Source: Haladaptatus sp. R4
GTDB lineage: Archaea > Halobacteriota > Halobacteria > Halobacteriales > Haladaptataceae
DNA: 64,000 bases
Assembly: GCF_001625445.1 (NCBI RefSeq)
Contig: NZ_LWHG01000001.1
Location: forward strand, 62,001 to 126,000
Direction: 5' to 3'
Shown piece after piece: positions 51,737 through 62,089 of this stretch (position 1 is its first letter; each line of letters begins with the position of its first letter). A program made the position numbers and the translations under genes. The notes under the pieces were generated by a model. It searched no databases. It was not told the origin of the DNA and was given only the letters and a program-made list of their open reading frames with translations.

Positions 51737-52123
51737 ATGCGAAGACGGGAATCCCTCCAGAAACTCGGTCTCGTTGTCTCTCTTACCTCGATGAGCGGTT
51801 GTGCAGCCATTCTCGGTGACCGTGGAAATCGGAAGGATGACGGTGATAATAGTCGATCCGGAGACCTAGAAAGTCGCGGAATCAAACCGAAGAAGGGGGA
51901 AAACGGTCACCTCGTGGTCGTCGTTACCGTGAAAAATACCGGAAAGGAAACGGAGTCCGCGGACCTCAAGGTGACAGTAAAAACGGACGGTACCGTTCAC
52001 GAGGAAACACCGACTATAACGGTTCCCGCAGGAAAGACGAAAGAGGTCAGTGTTCCCTTCGACATGACGTACGACAGATATGAGAACGCAACGAACCGGC
52101 CGATATCCATCAATCTGAAGTAA
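51737..52123 (+). CDS. Small lipoprotein with Ig-like (CARDB/FxLYD-type) domain
   Basis: 128 residues. A signal with MRRRESLQKLG, hydrophobic LVVSLTSM and lipobox SGC; RR-containing, so possibly Tat. After a Gly/Asp-rich linker, LVVVVTVKNTGKETESADLKVTVKTDG and VPAGKTKEVSVPFDM form a CARDB/FxLYD-type beta-sandwich. Likely cell-surface; function unknown. Converges with the next gene, adjacent stops. Confidence 0.75.
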   Translation: MRRRESLQKLGLVVSLTSMSGCAAILGDRGNRKDDGDNSRSGDLESRGIKPKKGENGHLVVVVTVKNTGKETESADLKVTVKTDGTVHEETPTITVPAGKTKEVSVPFDMTYDRYENATNRPISINLK

Positions 52124-54165: not shown

Positions 54166-54924
54166 CTAAAAGGTGCCGAGGCTGGCCTGCAGGCTTCGGT
54201 CGGTCGTGCCGACTTCGAGTTCGTAGCCGACGAGGTCGCGCATGTCCGTCGCGTAGGCCGTCCCGGCGCGTTCGAGGACGAGAACGCGGCCTTGCGTTCC
54301 GAGGACGGTACCGCTGGCGAGCGTCTCGTGGACGGGTGCGGATTCCAGTTCGAACCCATAATCGAACTCGAACGTTTCGAGCGGGTCGAACCGGGACACT
54401 GCCTCCTGCCACGCGGTTCCGTCGACGGTTCGATTGAGGGTTCGAATCTTCGCCGGGACGCGGACGCGGTCGGTGAACGTCTCGGCGATTTCAGCTTCGC
54501 GCTGGCGGGCGATTCGACCATCCTTCACGGTCGCGAGGTGGGCGGCGCGGTCCGCACCCTGTTCCCGAAGTCGCGTTTCGAGTCTCCACTCACGGGTGAC
54601 GCCGACTTTGAATATCGTGGGTGCGAACGCGGCGAGGTAGATGGCGTGGTCCTCGAAACAGTCCATCTCGTCCTTGAGACAGGTGCCGGTACAGCGAGCA
54701 CAGACCCACGTGCTTGTGTGGACGTCACAGTAGGGGGCGTCGGGGCGAGAACAGGGGATGTGCGTCGATCCGTCGAACGTTCCCGCACAGTGTCGTTCTC
54801 CGAGCGTGTATTCGAGTTCGGTCCCCCGTTCGAGCGTCTCGCGCGAAAGGGAATCGCCGTCGCTCACCAGCAGTGCTGGTGGTTCGTCACCGGATGCGCC
54901 CGTCTCGTAGCCGACGATCTGCAC
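54166..54924 (-). CDS. DUF2797 protein with zinc-ribbon and GIY-YIG-like domain
   Basis: 252 residues from GTG 54922-54924. Cys/His clusters HCAGTF, CSRPDAPYCDVH and VCARCTGTC make a zinc-binding region, followed by AIYLAAFAPTIFKVGVTREWRLETRLREQGA, which has the strand-helix shape and the Y...KVG...R...E pattern of GIY-YIG nucleases. DUF2797 has no established function; its place beside XPB and Bax1 suggests DNA metabolism. Confidence 0.85.
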   Translation of the reverse strand: MQIVGYETGASGDEPPALLVSDGDSLSRETLERGTELEYTLGERHCAGTFDGSTHIPCSRPDAPYCDVHTSTWVCARCTGTCLKDEMDCFEDHAIYLAAFAPTIFKVGVTREWRLETRLREQGADRAAHLATVKDGRIARQREAEIAETFTDRVRVPAKIRTLNRTVDGTAWQEAVSRFDPLETFEFDYGFELESAPVHETLASGTVLGTQGRVLVLERAGTAYATDMRDLVGYELEVGTTDRSLQASLGTF

Positions 54925-55055
54925 AACTGACGTTGGGTTTCACCGGATAAAAGACGTATCGTTCCGCCCGATATCTACGGGTTCTCGTTCTCATCTGTTG
55001 ATTTTTTATTATCTTAATGTGGACCACATTTATGAAAATAGTTTAATAATACCCC

Positions 55056-55298
55056 TTGCAATGGTACGTCGTGTCAGGCCACGAATCGGGTGGTTCCGAG
55101 CGGGATACCGTCGAAGCGAACATCGGGTACGACGGTGAGGGAGGCAAACGAGCGGCGTTGGACGCCGCAGTGACCGTCGTTCGGGAGTTCGAGTCGCTCG
55201 ACGTGGTGACGGTGGTGATTCCGCGCACAAAGTGGGAGGAACTGGACGGCCATCCCGAAATACGCTACGTCGAGGAAAACGCGCAATCCGGGGCGTAA
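55056..55298 (+). CDS. Free-standing subtilase propeptide (I9-type inhibitor/chaperone)
   Basis: 80 residues from a TTG at 55056; a GTG lies at 55071, and ATG 55061 is in a wrong frame. The whole protein matches the propeptides of the four proteases downstream: VEANIGYDGEGGKRAALDAA, then VVREFESLDVVTVVIPRTKWEEL, and RYVEENAQ, against VNVGYRGKAGKRAAMDAS and RYVEEDG of the protease at 59300. It has no catalytic domain and no signal peptide, so it should stay in the cytoplasm. Propeptides of this family are folding chaperones and tight inhibitors. A TATA-like TTTATGAA is 27 nt before the TTG. Confidence 0.8.
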   Translation: MQWYVVSGHESGGSERDTVEANIGYDGEGGKRAALDAAVTVVREFESLDVVTVVIPRTKWEELDGHPEIRYVEENAQSGA

Positions 55299-55406
55299 CG
55301 GTGTCTCTTCGGTGATGGTCAAACGGTCAGTGAAGCTGAAACTGTGGTTTATTTTCACAACATGGGCAAGAAATTATATTAACACATGGTTTATTGTTAC
55401 AGTTGC

Positions 55407-56564
55407 ATGGTAAGGAAAGCCAATGGCGTATCACGGCGTAAAATTCTCAAACTGACTGGCGGTTCGCTCGCGGCGGCGGGTGCGACCGGACTCGCGGCGG
55501 CGAAGCCGACGGACACGGTGGAGGTGAACGTCGGGTTCAAGAGCGCACGCGGACGGGCGATGACCCGAAGCAGTGCGGACGACGTGGTGCGGGAGTTCAA
55601 TTCAATCGACGCGATGACGATCCGTGTGCCGAAACGGGCGGCGACCGCGCTCGAAAAGAACCCTCACGTTCGATACGTCGAGGAGAACGGCACGATGCAC
55701 GCACTGGGCCAAACGCTTCCGTGGGGCGTGGACCGCGTGGACGCCGACGTCGCGCACGACGACGGTGACACCGGCGCGGGCGCTGATATCGCCATCATCG
55801 ACACGGGAATCGACTCGGATCATCCCGACCTCCAAGCCAACATCGGGTCTGGCAAGGCGTTCGTCAAGTGTCGCGGCGGAAAGAGCACGTGCCGGAACGA
55901 CTGGGACGACGACAACGAACACGGCACGCACTGTGGTGGTATCGCGGACGCCGTGGACAACAGCCAAGGCGTCGTCGGCGTCTCGACGCAGGCGACGCTC
56001 CACGCCGTCAAAGTGCTCGACAACCAGGGTAGCGGGTCGTACTCGGACATCGCGGCGGGTATCGAGTACGTCGCGGATCAGGGATGGGACGTCGGGAGCA
56101 TGAGTCTCGGCGGTTCGTCCGGTTCCTCCACGCTCCGCGATGCGTGTCAGTACGCGGTGGACAACGGTGTCTTCCTCGTCGCCGCGGCGGGCAACAGCGG
56201 TCCGTGTACCGACTGCGTCGGCTACCCCGCAGCCTATCCGGAAGTCATGGCAGTCGGTTCGACGAACTCCTCGGACGGCCTCTCGTACTTCTCCAGCACC
56301 GGATCGGAAGTCGAGATTGCCGCACCCGGCAGTAGTATCTACTCGACCGTCCCCGGCGGCTACGACACCCTCTCGGGAACGTCGATGGCGACCCCGCACG
56401 TCGCGGGGACCGCCGGTCAGTTGATGGCCGACGGGGCGTCGAACACGCAGGCGCGGGACACGATCAAACAAACCGCGGAGGACATCGGCCTTTCGAGCAA
56501 CGAGAGCGGCGCAGGACTCCTCGACACGGCGGCCGCACTCGGTCTCGACTCCAGCGACAACTAA
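55407..56564 (+). CDS. Tat-exported subtilisin-like serine protease (halolysin type) 1
   Basis: 385 residues from ATG 55407 (7 codons into the longest frame). Order: Tat signal with SRRKILKLTGG, I9-type propeptide (residues about 35-100, ending YVEENGTMHA), then the S8 catalytic domain. Asp132 (IIDTGIDSDHPDL), His175 (HGTHCGG), oxyanion Asn263 (AAAGNSGPC) and Ser326 (GTSMATPHV) are all present. Several Cys pairs (GPCTDC and others) suggest disulfides. No C-terminal extension, unlike classical halolysins. A TATA-like TATATTAA sits about 27-33 nt upstream, so it has its own promoter. Secreted protein-degrading enzyme. Confidence 0.95.
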   Translation: MVRKANGVSRRKILKLTGGSLAAAGATGLAAAKPTDTVEVNVGFKSARGRAMTRSSADDVVREFNSIDAMTIRVPKRAATALEKNPHVRYVEENGTMHALGQTLPWGVDRVDADVAHDDGDTGAGADIAIIDTGIDSDHPDLQANIGSGKAFVKCRGGKSTCRNDWDDDNEHGTHCGGIADAVDNSQGVVGVSTQATLHAVKVLDNQGSGSYSDIAAGIEYVADQGWDVGSMSLGGSSGSSTLRDACQYAVDNGVFLVAAAGNSGPCTDCVGYPAAYPEVMAVGSTNSSDGLSYFSSTGSEVEIAAPGSSIYSTVPGGYDTLSGTSMATPHVAGTAGQLMADGASNTQARDTIKQTAEDIGLSSNESGAGLLDTAAALGLDSSDN

Positions 56565-56707
56565 CCCGGTCTGTTCGGTAGCCGACCATCGCTCCCCCGA
56601 TTTATACAAAATTCATTATCCGATAGAAAGTTAATATCTCTTCAATTTTACTTATACTAAGTAAAATAGTTAATCTTTTAAACTCATGTTTCATTCTACC
56701 ATATGGT

Positions 56708-57898
56708 ATGGTAAGGAAAGCCAATGGCGTATCACGACGTAATATTCTCAAACTGACCGGTGGCTCCATCGCAGCGGCCGGTGCGACTGGCTTGGCATCG
56801 GCCGAGCCGACGGACAAGGTGGAAGTGAACGTCGGGTTCAAGAGCGCACGCGGACGGGCGATGACCCGAAGCAGTGCGGACGAAGTCGTCCGCGAGTTCA
56901 ACTCCATCGAGGCGATGACGATTCGCGTCCCGAAACGGGCGGCGACCGCGCTCGAAAAGAACCCCCACATCCGCTACGTCGAGGAGAACGGCACGATGGA
57001 AGCCCTCGCTCAGACGACGCCGTGGGGCGTGGACCGCGTGGATGCGGACGTCGCGCACGACAACGGTGACACGGGTTCCGGTGCCGACATCGCCATCGTC
57101 GACACGGGAATCGACGACGACCACCCGGACCTGCAAGCGAACATCGGCTCGGGCAAGTCGTTCGTCACCTGTGGCAGCGGCGGATACACGGGTAGCTGTA
57201 TCTTCTACGGGAACAGCAACTCCTGTAACGACTCGTGGTCCGACGACAACAACCACGGGACGCACTGTGCCGGTATCGCGAACGCCGTGGACAACAGCCA
57301 GGGCGTCGTCGGCGTCTCGACGCAGGCGACGCTCCACGCCGTCAAAGTGCTCGACTGTTCCGGAAGCGGGTCGTTTTCCGACATCGCGGCCGGTGTCGAG
57401 TACGTCGCGGATCAGGGTTGGGACGTCGCCAGCATGAGTCTCGGTGGCTCCTCCAGCTCGCAGGCGCTCAAGGACGCTATCGAGTACGCGTACGACAACG
57501 GCGTCGTGCTCGTGGCGGCGGCAGGCAACGACGGCCAGTGTACGGACTGTGTCGAGTACCCCGGTGCCTACCCCGAGACGATCACCGTCGCGTCCTCGAA
57601 CGACAGCGACGAACAGTCCTCGTTCTCCAGCCAAGGTCCGGAAGTCAACATCATCGCCCCCGGTACCGACATCTATTCGACCGTCCCCGGCGGCTACGAC
57701 ACCTACTCCGGAACGTCGATGGCGACCCCGCACGTCGCCGGTGCGGTCGGTCAGCTAATCGCGCAGGGCTACTCGGCCCGCGACGCGGAGAGCCAAATCC
57801 TGAACACGACCGAGGACCTCGGCTTGTCGAGCAACGTACAGGGAAGCGGTCTCCTCGACGTCGCCGCCGCGCTCGGACTCGACTCCAGCGACAACTGA
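56708..57898 (+). CDS. Tat-exported subtilisin-like serine protease 2
   Basis: 396 residues. Near-identical N-terminus to protease 1 (MVRKANGVSRRNILKLTGG). Triad: Asp132, His186, Ser337; oxyanion Asn274. Relative to protease 1 it has an insert with extra Cys between Asp and His (GSGGYTGSCIFYGNSNSC). Its own AT-rich promoter, with TTTTAAAC about 27-33 nt before the ATG. Same operon-independent layout as the neighbours. Confidence 0.95.
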   Translation: MVRKANGVSRRNILKLTGGSIAAAGATGLASAEPTDKVEVNVGFKSARGRAMTRSSADEVVREFNSIEAMTIRVPKRAATALEKNPHIRYVEENGTMEALAQTTPWGVDRVDADVAHDNGDTGSGADIAIVDTGIDDDHPDLQANIGSGKSFVTCGSGGYTGSCIFYGNSNSCNDSWSDDNNHGTHCAGIANAVDNSQGVVGVSTQATLHAVKVLDCSGSGSFSDIAAGVEYVADQGWDVASMSLGGSSSSQALKDAIEYAYDNGVVLVAAAGNDGQCTDCVEYPGAYPETITVASSNDSDEQSSFSSQGPEVNIIAPGTDIYSTVPGGYDTYSGTSMATPHVAGAVGQLIAQGYSARDAESQILNTTEDLGLSSNVQGSGLLDVAAALGLDSSDN

Positions 57899-58060
57899 GA
57901 CGGCGACCCGGTCGACGGTTCATCACACCAACTTTCGTTTTCAAAACCGACGAGCTACTGCACCGGACGCTTGGAACATTTACACACCAAATCAATTAGT
58001 AAATACTAGTACTAACTGCTAGAAATAAATATTATACTGGGTTGGTCTCTATTTGTTTTG

Positions 58061-59191
58061 ATGACGGACGAAACACGAGTTACGACTCGTCGGACCGTAT
58101 TGAAAGCGACCGGTGCATCGATGGTTGCCGTTGGTGCGAGCGGCGTCGCCGCCGGGACGGATGGGCTTCGGGAGGTAAACGTCGGCTTCGAGACACACTC
58201 CGGACGACGGATGGCCCGCGAAGCGGCGAACGACGTGGTACGGGAGTTCGACTCCATCGACGCGATGACGGTTCGCGTTCCGGCGAACGCGATATCGGCC
58301 CTCGAATCCGCGCCGGGCGTGGCGTACGTCGAGGAAAACGGGACGATGCGCGCGCTCCTGCAGGACCTTCCACACGGCGTGGACCGTATCGACGCCGACA
58401 TCGCCATCGAGAGCGGTTACACCGGCACGGGTGCCGAGGTTGCCGTCGTGGATACCGGCATCGACTCGAACCATCCGGACCTGCAGGCGAACCTCGGGAC
58501 TGGGAAAGCCGTCGTCGGGAGTTCGTGGAGCGACGACAACGGCCACGGGACACACGTCGCGGGAATCATCGGTGCCGCGAACGACGGTCAGGGCGTCGTC
58601 GGCGTCGCACCGGAGGCCACGCTCCACGCGGTAAAGGTGCTGGATAGCAACGGCAGTGGATCGTACTCCGACATCGCGGCGGGAATCGAGTGGGCGGCGG
58701 ACCAGGGCTACGACGTCATCAACCTGAGTCTCGGCGGCGGGTCCGGGTCCTCGACGGTCGACTCCGCGGTGCAGTACGCCTACAGCAACGGTTGCCTGCT
58801 CGTCGGTGCATCGGGCGGGTCCGGTCCGTGCACGTCCTGTGTCGGCTATCCGGCCTCGTCGTCGGAGGTCGTCGCAGTGAGCGCATCGAACACCGAAGAC
58901 GACATTGCCAGCTTTTCGAGTCGGGGCCCGGAAATCGAACTCATCGCGCCCGGTAAAAGCGTCAACTCGACGTACTGGGACGACACCTACCGAACCCTCT
59001 CGGGGACGTCGATGTCGACGGCGCACGTCTCCGGCGCGGCGGCACAGGTGATGGCCACGGGGTACACGAACACGGGCGCACGCCAACGACTCCGTGAGAC
59101 GGCGGAGGACCTCGGCCTGTCGAGCGACGAACAGGGCTACGGACTCGTGGACGTCGCGGCCGCGTTGGGACTGGATTCGAGCGAAAATTGA
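58061..59191 (+). CDS. Subtilisin-like protease 3 with the oxyanion-hole Asn replaced by Gly
   Basis: 376 residues from ATG 58061; Tat motif TTRRTVLKATG. Triad residues are kept: Asp131 (VVDTGIDSNHPDL), His165 (HGTHVAG) and Ser317 (GTSMSTAHVSG). But the oxyanion position reads ASGGSGPC with Gly253 where the other three have Asn (AAGNSGPC), and the Ser block is STAHVSG rather than ATPHVAG. Gly253 aligns exactly with Asn253 of protease 4. Activity is probably strongly reduced, or the protein has another role. TATA-like ATTATACT about 24-31 nt upstream. Confidence 0.92.
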   Translation: MTDETRVTTRRTVLKATGASMVAVGASGVAAGTDGLREVNVGFETHSGRRMAREAANDVVREFDSIDAMTVRVPANAISALESAPGVAYVEENGTMRALLQDLPHGVDRIDADIAIESGYTGTGAEVAVVDTGIDSNHPDLQANLGTGKAVVGSSWSDDNGHGTHVAGIIGAANDGQGVVGVAPEATLHAVKVLDSNGSGSYSDIAAGIEWAADQGYDVINLSLGGGSGSSTVDSAVQYAYSNGCLLVGASGGSGPCTSCVGYPASSSEVVAVSASNTEDDIASFSSRGPEIELIAPGKSVNSTYWDDTYRTLSGTSMSTAHVSGAAAQVMATGYTNTGARQRLRETAEDLGLSSDEQGYGLVDVAAALGLDSSEN

Positions 59192-59299
59192 GCGACGAAC
59201 GACGTCGAAACGGATTATTCCAGAAGAGTATATTGTTTTTCTTAATCTAGTGATCTAAGAAAAAAATTTAAGAGAGCACGCTACATGATTTCAATCGCA

Positions 59300-60412
59300 A
59301 TGCCACGCAACGAAAAGGCGGTTTCACGACGTAACGTACTCAGGGCGACCGGTGGAGCGACGGCAGGACTGGCAGTCACTGGATTCGCAAACGCGAAACC
59401 GACGGACAAGGTACGGGTCAACGTCGGATATCGTGGAAAAGCAGGAAAGCGGGCGGCGATGGACGCGTCGTCGAAAGTTCACCACGACTTCTCGTTCGAC
59501 GCGGTGACGCTCGAAGTACCGAAGAAGGCCGTCAAAGCGCTCCAACGACGGAGCGAGGTACGCTACGTCGAGGAGGACGGGACGATGCACGCACTCAGCC
59601 AGACCCTTCCGTGGGGCGTGGACCGCGTGGACGCCGATGAAGCACACAGTGCCGGATACACGGGCGCGGGCGCTGACATCGCCATCATCGACACGGGAAT
59701 CGACTCCTCGCACCCCGACCTGGACAACAACATCGGCAGCGGGACCTCGTACACCAGTTCGAGCTGGGAGGACAACAACGGCCACGGGACGCACTGTGCC
59801 GGTATCGCGGCCGCGGAGGACAACAGTCAGGGTGTCGTCGGGGTCGCACCGGAGGCCACGCTCCACGCCGTGAAGGTACTGAACAGCAACGGGCGCGGGT
59901 CGTACTCCGACATCGCAGCGGGTATCGAATACGTCGCGAATCAGGGATGGGACGTCGGGAGTCTGAGCCTCGGCGGTTCGTCCGGTTCCTCCGCGTTGCA
60001 GGACGCGGTCTCGTACGCCTACAACAACGGCGTCTTCCTCGCCACGGCGGCCGGGAACTCCGGACCGTGCACGGACTGTGTCGGCTACCCGGCGAAGTAC
60101 AGCGAATGTGTCGCCATCAGTTCGACGAACTCCTCGGACGGCCTCTCGTACTTCTCCAGCACCGGATCGGAAGTCGAGATTGCCGCACCCGGCAGCAGCA
60201 TCTACTCGACCTACTACGGAGACTCCTACGAGACGCTCTCGGGAACGTCGATGGCGACCCCGCACGTCGCCGGTGCCGCAGGCATCCTGATGGGCCAACT
60301 CGGCTACTCCAACACGGGTGCCCGAAGCCGCCTCCAGAACACCGCGGAGGACCTCGGCCTGTCCAGCAACGAGCAGGGCTACGGCCTCCTGGACGTGTAC
60401 TCGGCGGTCTAA
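59300..60412 (+). CDS. Tat-exported subtilisin-like serine protease 4
   Basis: 370 residues from ATG 59300 (ATG 59285 in frame). Tat motif SRRNVLRATGG, propeptide ending RYVEEDGTMHALS, triad Asp131, His165 and Ser317, oxyanion Asn253. Its propeptide is the closest of the four to the free-standing one (GKRAAMDAS vs GKRAALDAA). A 75-nt stretch near the C-terminal region is identical to protease 1, suggesting gene conversion. AT-rich promoter (59255-59275). Confidence 0.95.
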   Translation: MPRNEKAVSRRNVLRATGGATAGLAVTGFANAKPTDKVRVNVGYRGKAGKRAAMDASSKVHHDFSFDAVTLEVPKKAVKALQRRSEVRYVEEDGTMHALSQTLPWGVDRVDADEAHSAGYTGAGADIAIIDTGIDSSHPDLDNNIGSGTSYTSSSWEDNNGHGTHCAGIAAAEDNSQGVVGVAPEATLHAVKVLNSNGRGSYSDIAAGIEYVANQGWDVGSLSLGGSSGSSALQDAVSYAYNNGVFLATAAGNSGPCTDCVGYPAKYSECVAISSTNSSDGLSYFSSTGSEVEIAAPGSSIYSTYYGDSYETLSGTSMATPHVAGAAGILMGQLGYSNTGARSRLQNTAEDLGLSSNEQGYGLLDVYSAV

Positions 60413-60427
60413 TCCCGACGACCGCAT

Positions 60428-60527
60428 CATCACCAACACGCCGTTCTCATCACCAACACGCCGTTCTCATCACTAACACGGCCATCTCATCAGCTGACGG
60501 CCATCTCATCAGCTGACGGCCGTATCT
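60428..60527. repeat. Five degenerate tandem units after protease 4
   Basis: Units of 20, 20, 20, 19 and 19-21 bp: CATCACCAACACGCCGTTCT twice exactly (60428-60447, 60448-60467), a variant ending in GGCCATCT (60468-60487), then CATCAGCTGACGGCCATCT and a variant. The unit carries CAGCTG palindromes in its later copies. The spacer 60413-60652 (240 bp) holds nothing else except AT-rich DNA before the next gene. Confidence 0.85.
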
Positions 60528-60652
60528 CCATCAGTATCACCGGCGGCATTTTTCAGCAGGGGTCCCGAATCAGCGAGTCCGAAAGAGAAAGAGAGGGGAG
60601 AGTTGGAGCGAAGGGGACAACCTTTTCGAACTAGCGAAACGAATTGTAAATA

Positions 60653-60985
60653 ATGACGCTCGAAAGCGAAGTAACGGCGACGCCGACGGACGGAACCGTC
60701 GAGTTCGAACTGCGGGTGAAAAACACCGACACCGACCCCACGAACGTGACGTTCCGGAGCGGCCTCAAGGCCGACTTCGCCGTCCTCGACGACGGCGCGG
60801 AGATTTGGCGCGCAAGCGACGGGCAGATGTACACGCAAGCGCTCCAAAACGTGGCGTTCGACCCGGACGTCGAGAAGACCTACTCCGGCGGATGGCCCGA
60901 CGCGAAACCGGGCCAGTACACCGTCGTCGCGACGCTCGAAATCGTGGAAGAAGACGTGGAAGCGCGAACAGACTTCAAACTCTGA
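60653..60985 (+). CDS. BsuPI-type intracellular proteinase inhibitor
   Basis: 110 residues, no signal peptide. The pattern VEFELRVKNTDTDPTNVTFRSGLKADFAVLDDGAEIWRASDGQMYTQAL, then VEKTYSGGWPDAKPGQYTVVATLEI fits the BsuPI family (PF12690), whose namesake is the intracellular inhibitor of Bacillus subtilis intracellular subtilisin. It is directly downstream of four subtilase genes and on the same strand. Likely to inhibit subtilases in the cytoplasm; the target is inferred from location. Confidence 0.82.
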   Translation: MTLESEVTATPTDGTVEFELRVKNTDTDPTNVTFRSGLKADFAVLDDGAEIWRASDGQMYTQALQNVAFDPDVEKTYSGGWPDAKPGQYTVVATLEIVEEDVEARTDFKL

Positions 60986-61003: not shown

Positions 61004-61933
61004 CTATTTCAGTTCGTCGTACAACTGTTCTGCGGCACGTCGAACCGCCTCGTCGCTGCTCTGGGTGGGATCCCAGCCGAGCGCCGACAGTTTCTCGATG
61101 GAGAGACGCATCTTGGGTACGTCGCCCGTCCATCCGCGGTCGCCGCCGGTGTACTCGTACTCGGGGTCGAGTCCCATCACGTCGGCCACGATGTCCGCGA
61201 TGGCGTTGACCGAAGTCGTCGTCCGCGTCCCGAGGTTGTACGTGTTCAAATCGTCTTCCCCATTCTCGACGATGTGGCACATCGCGTCGATACACTCCTC
61301 GACGTGGAGGTAGGATTTTTCCTGTCGTCCGTCGCCGAGGATGGTCAGCGATTCGGGGTCTTCGAGCAGCTTTTCGATGAAATCCGGAATGACGTTGCCG
61401 CGCTGGTGCGGACCGACGATGTTGGCGAAGCGGTACATCCACACGTCGAACCCGTAGGAGTGAGCGTACGTCGAGATGATTCCCTCGTCCGCGAGTTTGC
61501 TCGCCCCGTAGATGCTGATGGGTTCCAACGGCGCGTAGTCCTCGGGCGTCGGCATCGGCGCTTCGCCGTACACCGTCGAAGAGGACGTGAACGCGAAGTT
61601 GGTCACGTCGACATCGTGCATTCGTTCGAGAATGTTGTACGTCATCTCGCTGTTCTCTTCGAACAGTTTGCGCGGCTGGGCGTAGTTCGTGTCCGTGTAC
61701 GCCGCGAAATGAAACACCATGTCGAGGTCTTCGGTGATGACCTCTGCCACGTCATTTTCTTCGGTCATATCCGCCTGCACGAACGTCACACCGTCGGGAA
61801 CGCGGTCCTGCGTTCCCTTCGAGAGGTCGTCGACGACCGTCACATCGTTCGATTTGGAGAGGCGCTTTGCGAGGTGAGAACCGACCAGACCGGCACCGCC
61901 GGTTACGAGGATCCGCTTTCCTGTAAGCTGCAT
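61004..61933 (-). CDS. NAD-dependent sugar-nucleotide epimerase/dehydratase
   Basis: 309 residues from ATG 61931-61933. Rossmann motif ILVTGGAGLVGSHLA, catalytic SSSTVYGEA and YGASK (Tyr-x-x-x-Lys), RFANIVGPHQ and YLHVEECIDAMC are those of the extended SDR family (UDP-glucose 4-epimerase/dTDP-glucose dehydratase type). Product probably feeds surface glycan assembly. Convergent with the inhibitor gene. Confidence 0.94.
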   Translation of the reverse strand: MQLTGKRILVTGGAGLVGSHLAKRLSKSNDVTVVDDLSKGTQDRVPDGVTFVQADMTEENDVAEVITEDLDMVFHFAAYTDTNYAQPRKLFEENSEMTYNILERMHDVDVTNFAFTSSSTVYGEAPMPTPEDYAPLEPISIYGASKLADEGIISTYAHSYGFDVWMYRFANIVGPHQRGNVIPDFIEKLLEDPESLTILGDGRQEKSYLHVEECIDAMCHIVENGEDDLNTYNLGTRTTTSVNAIADIVADVMGLDPEYEYTGGDRGWTGDVPKMRLSIEKLSALGWDPTQSSDEAVRRAAEQLYDELK

Positions 61934-62089
61934 GCTCGCTTGTGTGATTGTTTCCGGCAAGTGTGTTCCGGTCCGTCGTCCACCCCTCCGGAGCGAGGTT
62001 TTGAATCGAAAGCGATCTCGTGAAATATTATCTAATTTTTCACTGAACGCCAATAACGCTTATACACAAATATCGAAATGGTTTCCGGT

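Follow-up and report, generated by a model that had tools for sequence, protein, structure and literature searches.

Signal-less inhibitor-like genes flank an array of Tat-exported subtilases in Haladaptatus: a possible cytoplasmic quarantine of prematurely matured enzyme

We have analysed a subtilase locus in a 64,000-nt stretch of Haladaptatus sp. R4 (hereafter the window, in whose positions all coordinates are given unless a locus is named). Six open reading frames (ORFs) on the + strand at 55071-60985 encode a stand-alone propeptide-like protein, four subtilases with signals for twin-arginine translocation (Tat) and a protein of the BsuPI/IPI family (Table 1). A preliminary description of the same DNA had reported a free propeptide, four Tat subtilases and a BsuPI gene on one strand, with two signal-less inhibitor-like genes flanking the array, and we confirm this layout.

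Table 1. Features of the subtilase locus and its boundaries
Feature	Position	Strand	Evidence
TATA-like box TTTAATAA ahead of the free propeptide ORF	55042..55049	+	box type and distance to GTG recurring in Haladaptatus orthologues
Free-standing protein resembling a subtilase propeptide (I9-type), 75 aa, GTG start	55071..55298	+	orthologue in 9/9 Haladaptatus
Tat-exported subtilase 1 (S8a): signal, propeptide, catalytic domain	55407..56564	+	Pfam S8 E 4e-56; D/H/N/S active-site residues intact
Tat-exported subtilase 2 (S8b)	56708..57898	+	Pfam S8 E 1.6e-51; D/H/N/S intact
Tat-exported subtilase 3 (S8c), N155G + P225A clade, triad intact	58061..59191	+	alignment, tree, dN/dS 0.14
Tat-exported subtilase 4 (S8d)	59300..60412	+	Pfam S8 E 1.5e-55; D/H/N/S intact
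Conserved box TTTTCGAA, 23-30 nt 5' of BsuPI start	60623..60630	+	same place in 9/9 Haladaptatus
BsuPI/IPI-family protein, 110 aa, no signal peptide	60653..60985	+	PF12690 E 2.1e-23
Divergent DUF2797 gene bounding the S8 slot on the left	54166..54924	-	conserved across haloarchaea
Convergent gene for a GalE-like sugar epimerase, bounding the locus on the right	61004..62053	-	kept in 9/9 Haladaptatus and many other haloarchaeal loci

All four long ORFs carry the Pfam S8 catalytic domain (E 1.6e-51 to 4e-56). Each subtilase start (55407, 56708, 58061, 59300) lies about 25-35 nt 3' of an A/T box, a spacing consistent with leaderless transcripts, and each protein opens with a twin-arginine signal. 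Like the halolysins SptA, Nep, HlyR4 and HlyHap, the last reported as an active enzyme from Haladaptatus sp. DYF46 (1,203 bp; PMC12893001), the array enzymes combine a Tat signal, a propeptide and an S8 domain with an intact triad. SptA-type halolysins also carry a C-terminal extension, whereas the array ORFs (370-396 aa) end with the S8 domain; we therefore call their products Tat-exported subtilases and not SptA-type halolysins.

The third subtilase, S8c, belongs to a clade (Shimodaira-Hasegawa-like approximate likelihood-ratio test (SH-aLRT) 97) that spans Haladaptatus (7/9 arrays) and a sister genus of the same family, g3 (7 loci), with examples at 58061-59191 in the window and at L040:7127-7942, L041:6071-6886 and L174:5826-6653. 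The clade keeps the Asp-His-Ser triad and is marked by replacement of the oxyanion-hole Asn by Gly (N155G, BPN' numbering) and of Pro225 by Ala; all 14 Gly members have both changes, and two further long-branch members have P225A only. Among the remaining 73 subtilases, 72 have Asn and Pro, and the last has Pro, its Asn position being unaligned. A ratio of non-synonymous to synonymous substitution rates (dN/dS) of 0.14 within Haladaptatus indicates strong selection. N155 mutants of subtilisin are far slower than the wild type, and P225A is one of the two subtiligase mutations; judged by these residues, S8c could be a slow protease, a decoy or an acyl-transferase/transpeptidase. The idea that the free propeptide is a private helper of this subtilase was rejected, as loci L042 and L046 keep the free propeptide and have no N155G subtilase.

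The free propeptide gene most probably starts at GTG 55071 and not at TTG 55056, the start adopted in the preliminary description, because the box TTTAATAA lies 22-29 nt 5' of this GTG, a spacing typical of leaderless archaeal transcripts, and because GTG and box recur in the other Haladaptatus orthologues (in L047 the box reads TTTACTAC). With the start corrected, both inhibitor-like genes are still signal-less: in-frame stops 5' of the free propeptide ORF exclude a longer, signal-bearing form in 8/9 orthologues, and in nearly all of the 69 loci inspected at most a few residues separate the start codon of BsuPI from its domain, with no signal.

Homology of the free protein to subtilase propeptides is supported at several levels. 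It shares 36-45% identity with most cis-propeptides, which translated searches recover at E about 1e-8 to 1e-13, and a profile built from free proteins and cis-propeptides matches the subtilisin BPN' prosegment (1SPB) at 9e-7. The curated Pfam cut-off (PF05922 or PF22148) was not reached (best 14.7 bits against 21, Fervidolysin_NPro-like); three of the four subtilases in the array have cis-propeptides that likewise score under both cut-offs, and NCBIfam has no model for either small protein. The AlphaFold model, with a predicted local distance difference test (pLDDT) score of 92-96 over residues 11-70, adopts the b-a-b-b-a-b open-sandwich fold, and its top PDB matches in Foldseek are subtilisin prosegments (1SPB_P: probability 1.00, template modelling (TM) score 0.67, E 0.02); it also resembles the Tk-subtilisin propeptide. 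At its C-terminus (ENGQTGA or similar) the free protein stops one residue before the end of the M-x-A-L motif conserved in cis-propeptides.

An orthologue is present in all nine Haladaptatus species-level genomes, the window protein being 54-69% identical to the other eight. The gene is under purifying selection, with dN/dS about 0.18 and a ratio of non-synonymous to synonymous differences per site (pN/pS) of 0.33, and in the tree a single long-stemmed clade (SH-aLRT 98) unites the nine proteins, lying among the S8 propeptides of the same family. No orthologue was detected in other genera at E<=1e-11 among 391 genomes of the class, a search that a very diverged one could escape, and none lies beside BsuPI in 60 further loci examined.

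The BsuPI protein matches PF12690 with 82.6 bits against a cut-off of 22.9. Its model (pLDDT 95.4) has an Ig-like fold, and the top Foldseek match is B. subtilis IPI (3ISY, TM 0.85). Among its best conserved parts is the stretch M-[FY]-T-Q-A-L, which, by alignment to 3ISY and residue count, appears to correspond to IPI residues 62-68, the proposed inhibitory edge entering the subtilisin cleft (PMC3901451). It shares family, predicted fold, putative inhibitory edge and signal-less form with B. subtilis IPI, which is reported to inhibit the intracellular subtilisin Isp1 with an inhibition constant of the order of 1e-9 M (PMC3901451), whereas the Haladaptatus gene adjoins Tat-subtilase arrays. 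All 28 genomes of the family carry exactly one BsuPI gene, and the gene is present in 152 of 292 sampled genomes of the class. The box TTTTCGAA stands at the same position in 9/9 Haladaptatus, with small changes in one (TTTTCTAC), and is likely BsuPI's own promoter element. In the literature searched we found no paper on haloarchaea with BsuPI.

The arrangement is conserved across the genus and is not a peculiarity of one strain, a possibility that the preliminary description had singled out for checking. The order free propeptide, two to five S8 genes, BsuPI, GalE recurs in all nine Haladaptatus species-level genomes, a conserved synteny of stand-alone propeptide and subtilase genes of the kind known for SUB1-ProM of Plasmodium. 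Arrays of 1-10 S8 genes abut BsuPI in 15/18 genomes of the sister genus. Outside the family, S8 adjoins BsuPI in 14/43 genera over five families, always on the same strand and in 13/14 genera 5' of BsuPI; the two genes are about 60 to 980 bp apart, and distances of 60-130 bp are frequent; L132 (G255) is the sole locus with BsuPI 5' of subtilases on the same strand. This adjacency contradicts a 2013 paper, according to which no IPI gene lies near a subtilisin gene (PMC3901451). Recurrent-neighbour clustering around BsuPI returned mostly antisense-ORF noise.

The 14 genera do not represent 14 independent events, because BsuPI has a divergent DUF2797 gene as its neighbour in nearly all loci (L127-L172 among them) and in most of the haloarchaeal genera sampled, whether S8 is present between the two or not. 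A simple binomial test (p about 1e-14 to 1e-18) that treated the genera as independent evidence was set aside for this reason. We conclude that there is a single ancient locus, DUF2797-BsuPI, and that subtilases have been gained, lost and multiplied in the slot between its two genes. The subtilases of the slot are not supported as one clade, which would force at least five changes; slot and non-slot sequences are interleaved in a tree with few non-slot sequences, chosen with a bias towards close propeptides. Near BsuPI, subtilase genes that are fragmentary or split (L044:4400-4471, L185:8720-8815, L186:5164-5999, L042:6785-7120) are a sign of birth-and-death turnover in the arrays.

Co-occurrence is a less synteny-bound sign of the tie between BsuPI and S8 than adjacency. 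Class-wide, S8 was found in 145/152 genomes with BsuPI and in 99/140 without it (Fisher p 7.7e-9). Within genera, genomes with BsuPI carry more S8 genes (permutation p 0.0005; S8 counts of about 7-8 per genome are to be read as at least that many), a test that handles kinship at genus level only, some S8-less genomes having no assigned genus. The association extends to genera in which the two genes are not adjacent (p 0.016).

The preliminary description treated the two flanking proteins as inhibitors that hold the proteases inactive before export. Both are indeed signal-less and have inhibitor-like predicted folds (a prosegment and 3ISY, respectively), but the two differ in standing: BsuPI is an ancient gene that many genomes retain with no S8 next to it, and the free propeptide is an addition found only in Haladaptatus. 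Holding proteases inactive before export is also unlikely as worded, since each protease has its own cis-propeptide. The need for cytoplasmic protection does stand: as summarized in a later paper (PMC6085418, citing Du et al. 2015), the halolysin SptA self-activates and builds up as active enzyme in the cytoplasm of ageing cells, and mutation of its Tat signal or a block of export leads to intracellular active enzyme and cell death.

We consider it probable, from sequence and structural models, that both small proteins act in trans on subtilase that has matured too early in the cytoplasm. Each subtilase would be synthesized complete with Tat signal and propeptide, folded in the cytoplasm and then exported. 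Copies that process themselves before export would lose signal and propeptide together, leaving active protease trapped in the cell, which it could not leave because the Tat signal is gone too. Inhibitors in trans would be needed only for these copies, because the active site of the proform is filled by its own cis-propeptide. BsuPI, as an ancient and general IPI-type inhibitor with an Ig-like fold, would bind the open active-site cleft of the escaped enzyme and block its activity; Haladaptatus alone would add a propeptide domain, derived from a duplicated subtilase and now free-standing, that binds and blocks escaped enzyme as well. The role would thus be quarantine of escaped enzyme and not storage of export-ready precursors. 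With a promoter-like box of its own at each gene, inhibitors and proteases can be regulated apart. More tentatively, and with somewhat less than even confidence, we propose that the whole forms a two-layer cytoplasmic quarantine of Tat-exported proteases, composed of an ancient IPI-type inhibitor kept for subtilase-rich genomes and a freed propeptide in one genus.

Several observations weigh against this proposal. MEROPS removed the IPI family (former I22), its inhibitor status being unclear and its members possibly competing substrates (PMC3901451). The free propeptide, with its short tail, may bind weakly and may inhibit less strongly or more reversibly than a cis-propeptide does, because the C-terminal tail sets inhibitory potency in Tk-subtilisin, POIA1 and YIB2 (PMC10580911). 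The arrays of the sister genus lack a free propeptide though they are larger (up to 10 S8), and thus the protein is not essential to such arrays. Synteny passes from ancestor to descendant, so the gene order counts for less as evidence; BsuPI stands without adjacent S8 in most genera, and in 7/152 genomes with BsuPI no S8 was detected at E<=1e-15.

Subtilisin propeptides are classic folding chaperones, and the free propeptide could serve mainly to fold the subtilases, or one of them, in trans, with inhibition a by-product and BsuPI an unrelated resident of the ancestral locus. This textbook role would fit the missing last motif residue, whose loss should cut inhibitory strength more than folding help, and the titles of Tk-subtilisin structures with a C-terminally shortened propeptide indicate that truncated propeptides still bind. 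However, the array subtilases already carry a propeptide in cis, and the persistence of the free gene in arrays without an N155G subtilase argues against its being the helper of that copy. We regard such a chaperone as unlikely.

Linkage by descent alone is a further alternative to quarantine: BsuPI, an old neighbour of DUF2797, would serve protein-protein interaction in general, and the S8 expansion would have entered the slot by chance. The direct contact of BsuPI with DUF2797 in most S8-less genera, which suggests that the locus predates or outlives the array, is what this would predict, as are the interleaving of slot and non-slot subtilases in the tree and the two g3 genomes (L179, L180) in which BsuPI and DUF2797 stand together with no S8 between them. 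Against it, BsuPI presence tracks S8 number within genera, non-adjacent ones included, few parts of BsuPI are as well conserved as the putative inhibitory stretch, and S8 lies same-strand and 5' of BsuPI in 13 of the 14 outside genera with adjacency; we judge this reading rather improbable. Tat exports folded complexes, on which a signal-less partner can ride along, so both small proteins might leave with the proteases and inhibit them for a time at the cell surface; this is highly improbable, as the site of the pre-proenzyme would be filled by its own propeptide and the matured enzyme would lack a signal, leaving no obvious exportable complex with a free site. We give almost no credence to, and rejected, the free propeptide as a decaying subtilase remnant: its clade does stem from S8 propeptides and fragments do occur in these arrays (as in L044, L185 and the split gene of L186), but it is intact in every Haladaptatus genome, under selection at the dN/dS given above, with a conserved start and box, in a single long-stemmed clade.

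Two further features lie in or near the locus. Short tandem repeats with units like CATCACCAACACGCCGTTCT and CATCAGCTGACGGCCATCT occupy 60425-60520, between the last subtilase and BsuPI. At 51737-52123, a small lipoprotein-like gene with a weak CARDB/Fn3-like domain stands upstream of a helicase, a position kept in 9/9 Haladaptatus.

Neither component of this system, free propeptide or IPI, is new, and a stand-alone propeptide next to subtilase genes has a precedent in SUB1-ProM, a potent inhibitor of SUB1 (PMC6993865). SUB1-ProM is eukaryotic, is expressed in the parasitophorous vacuole together with its target and has no BsuPI partner, whereas the Haladaptatus protein is signal-less, has Tat-exported subtilases as its putative targets and is a candidate inhibitor. 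An independent origin is likely, because the free clade sits among archaeal S8 propeptides of the same family. Fungal POIA1 and yeast YIB2 are free I9-fold subtilisin inhibitors in which C-terminal residues set potency (PMC10580911). The Haladaptatus propeptide is likened to them by fold. To our knowledge, neither is linked to an exported subtilase array. No trans inhibitor of any halolysin, and no archaeal, Tat-linked arrangement of two inhibitors, was found described in the literature searched, most subscription journals lying outside its scope.

The genomic tie of BsuPI to subtilases, reported as absent in the 2013 structure paper, bears on the doubt over IPI/BsuPI proteins as true inhibitors. 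Additionally, Tat substrates fold before export, and organisms that export subtilisins in this way risk active protease inside the cell. The halolysin work cited here describes the harm and no cytoplasmic antidote; the Haladaptatus locus offers two candidate antidotes with conserved orthologues.

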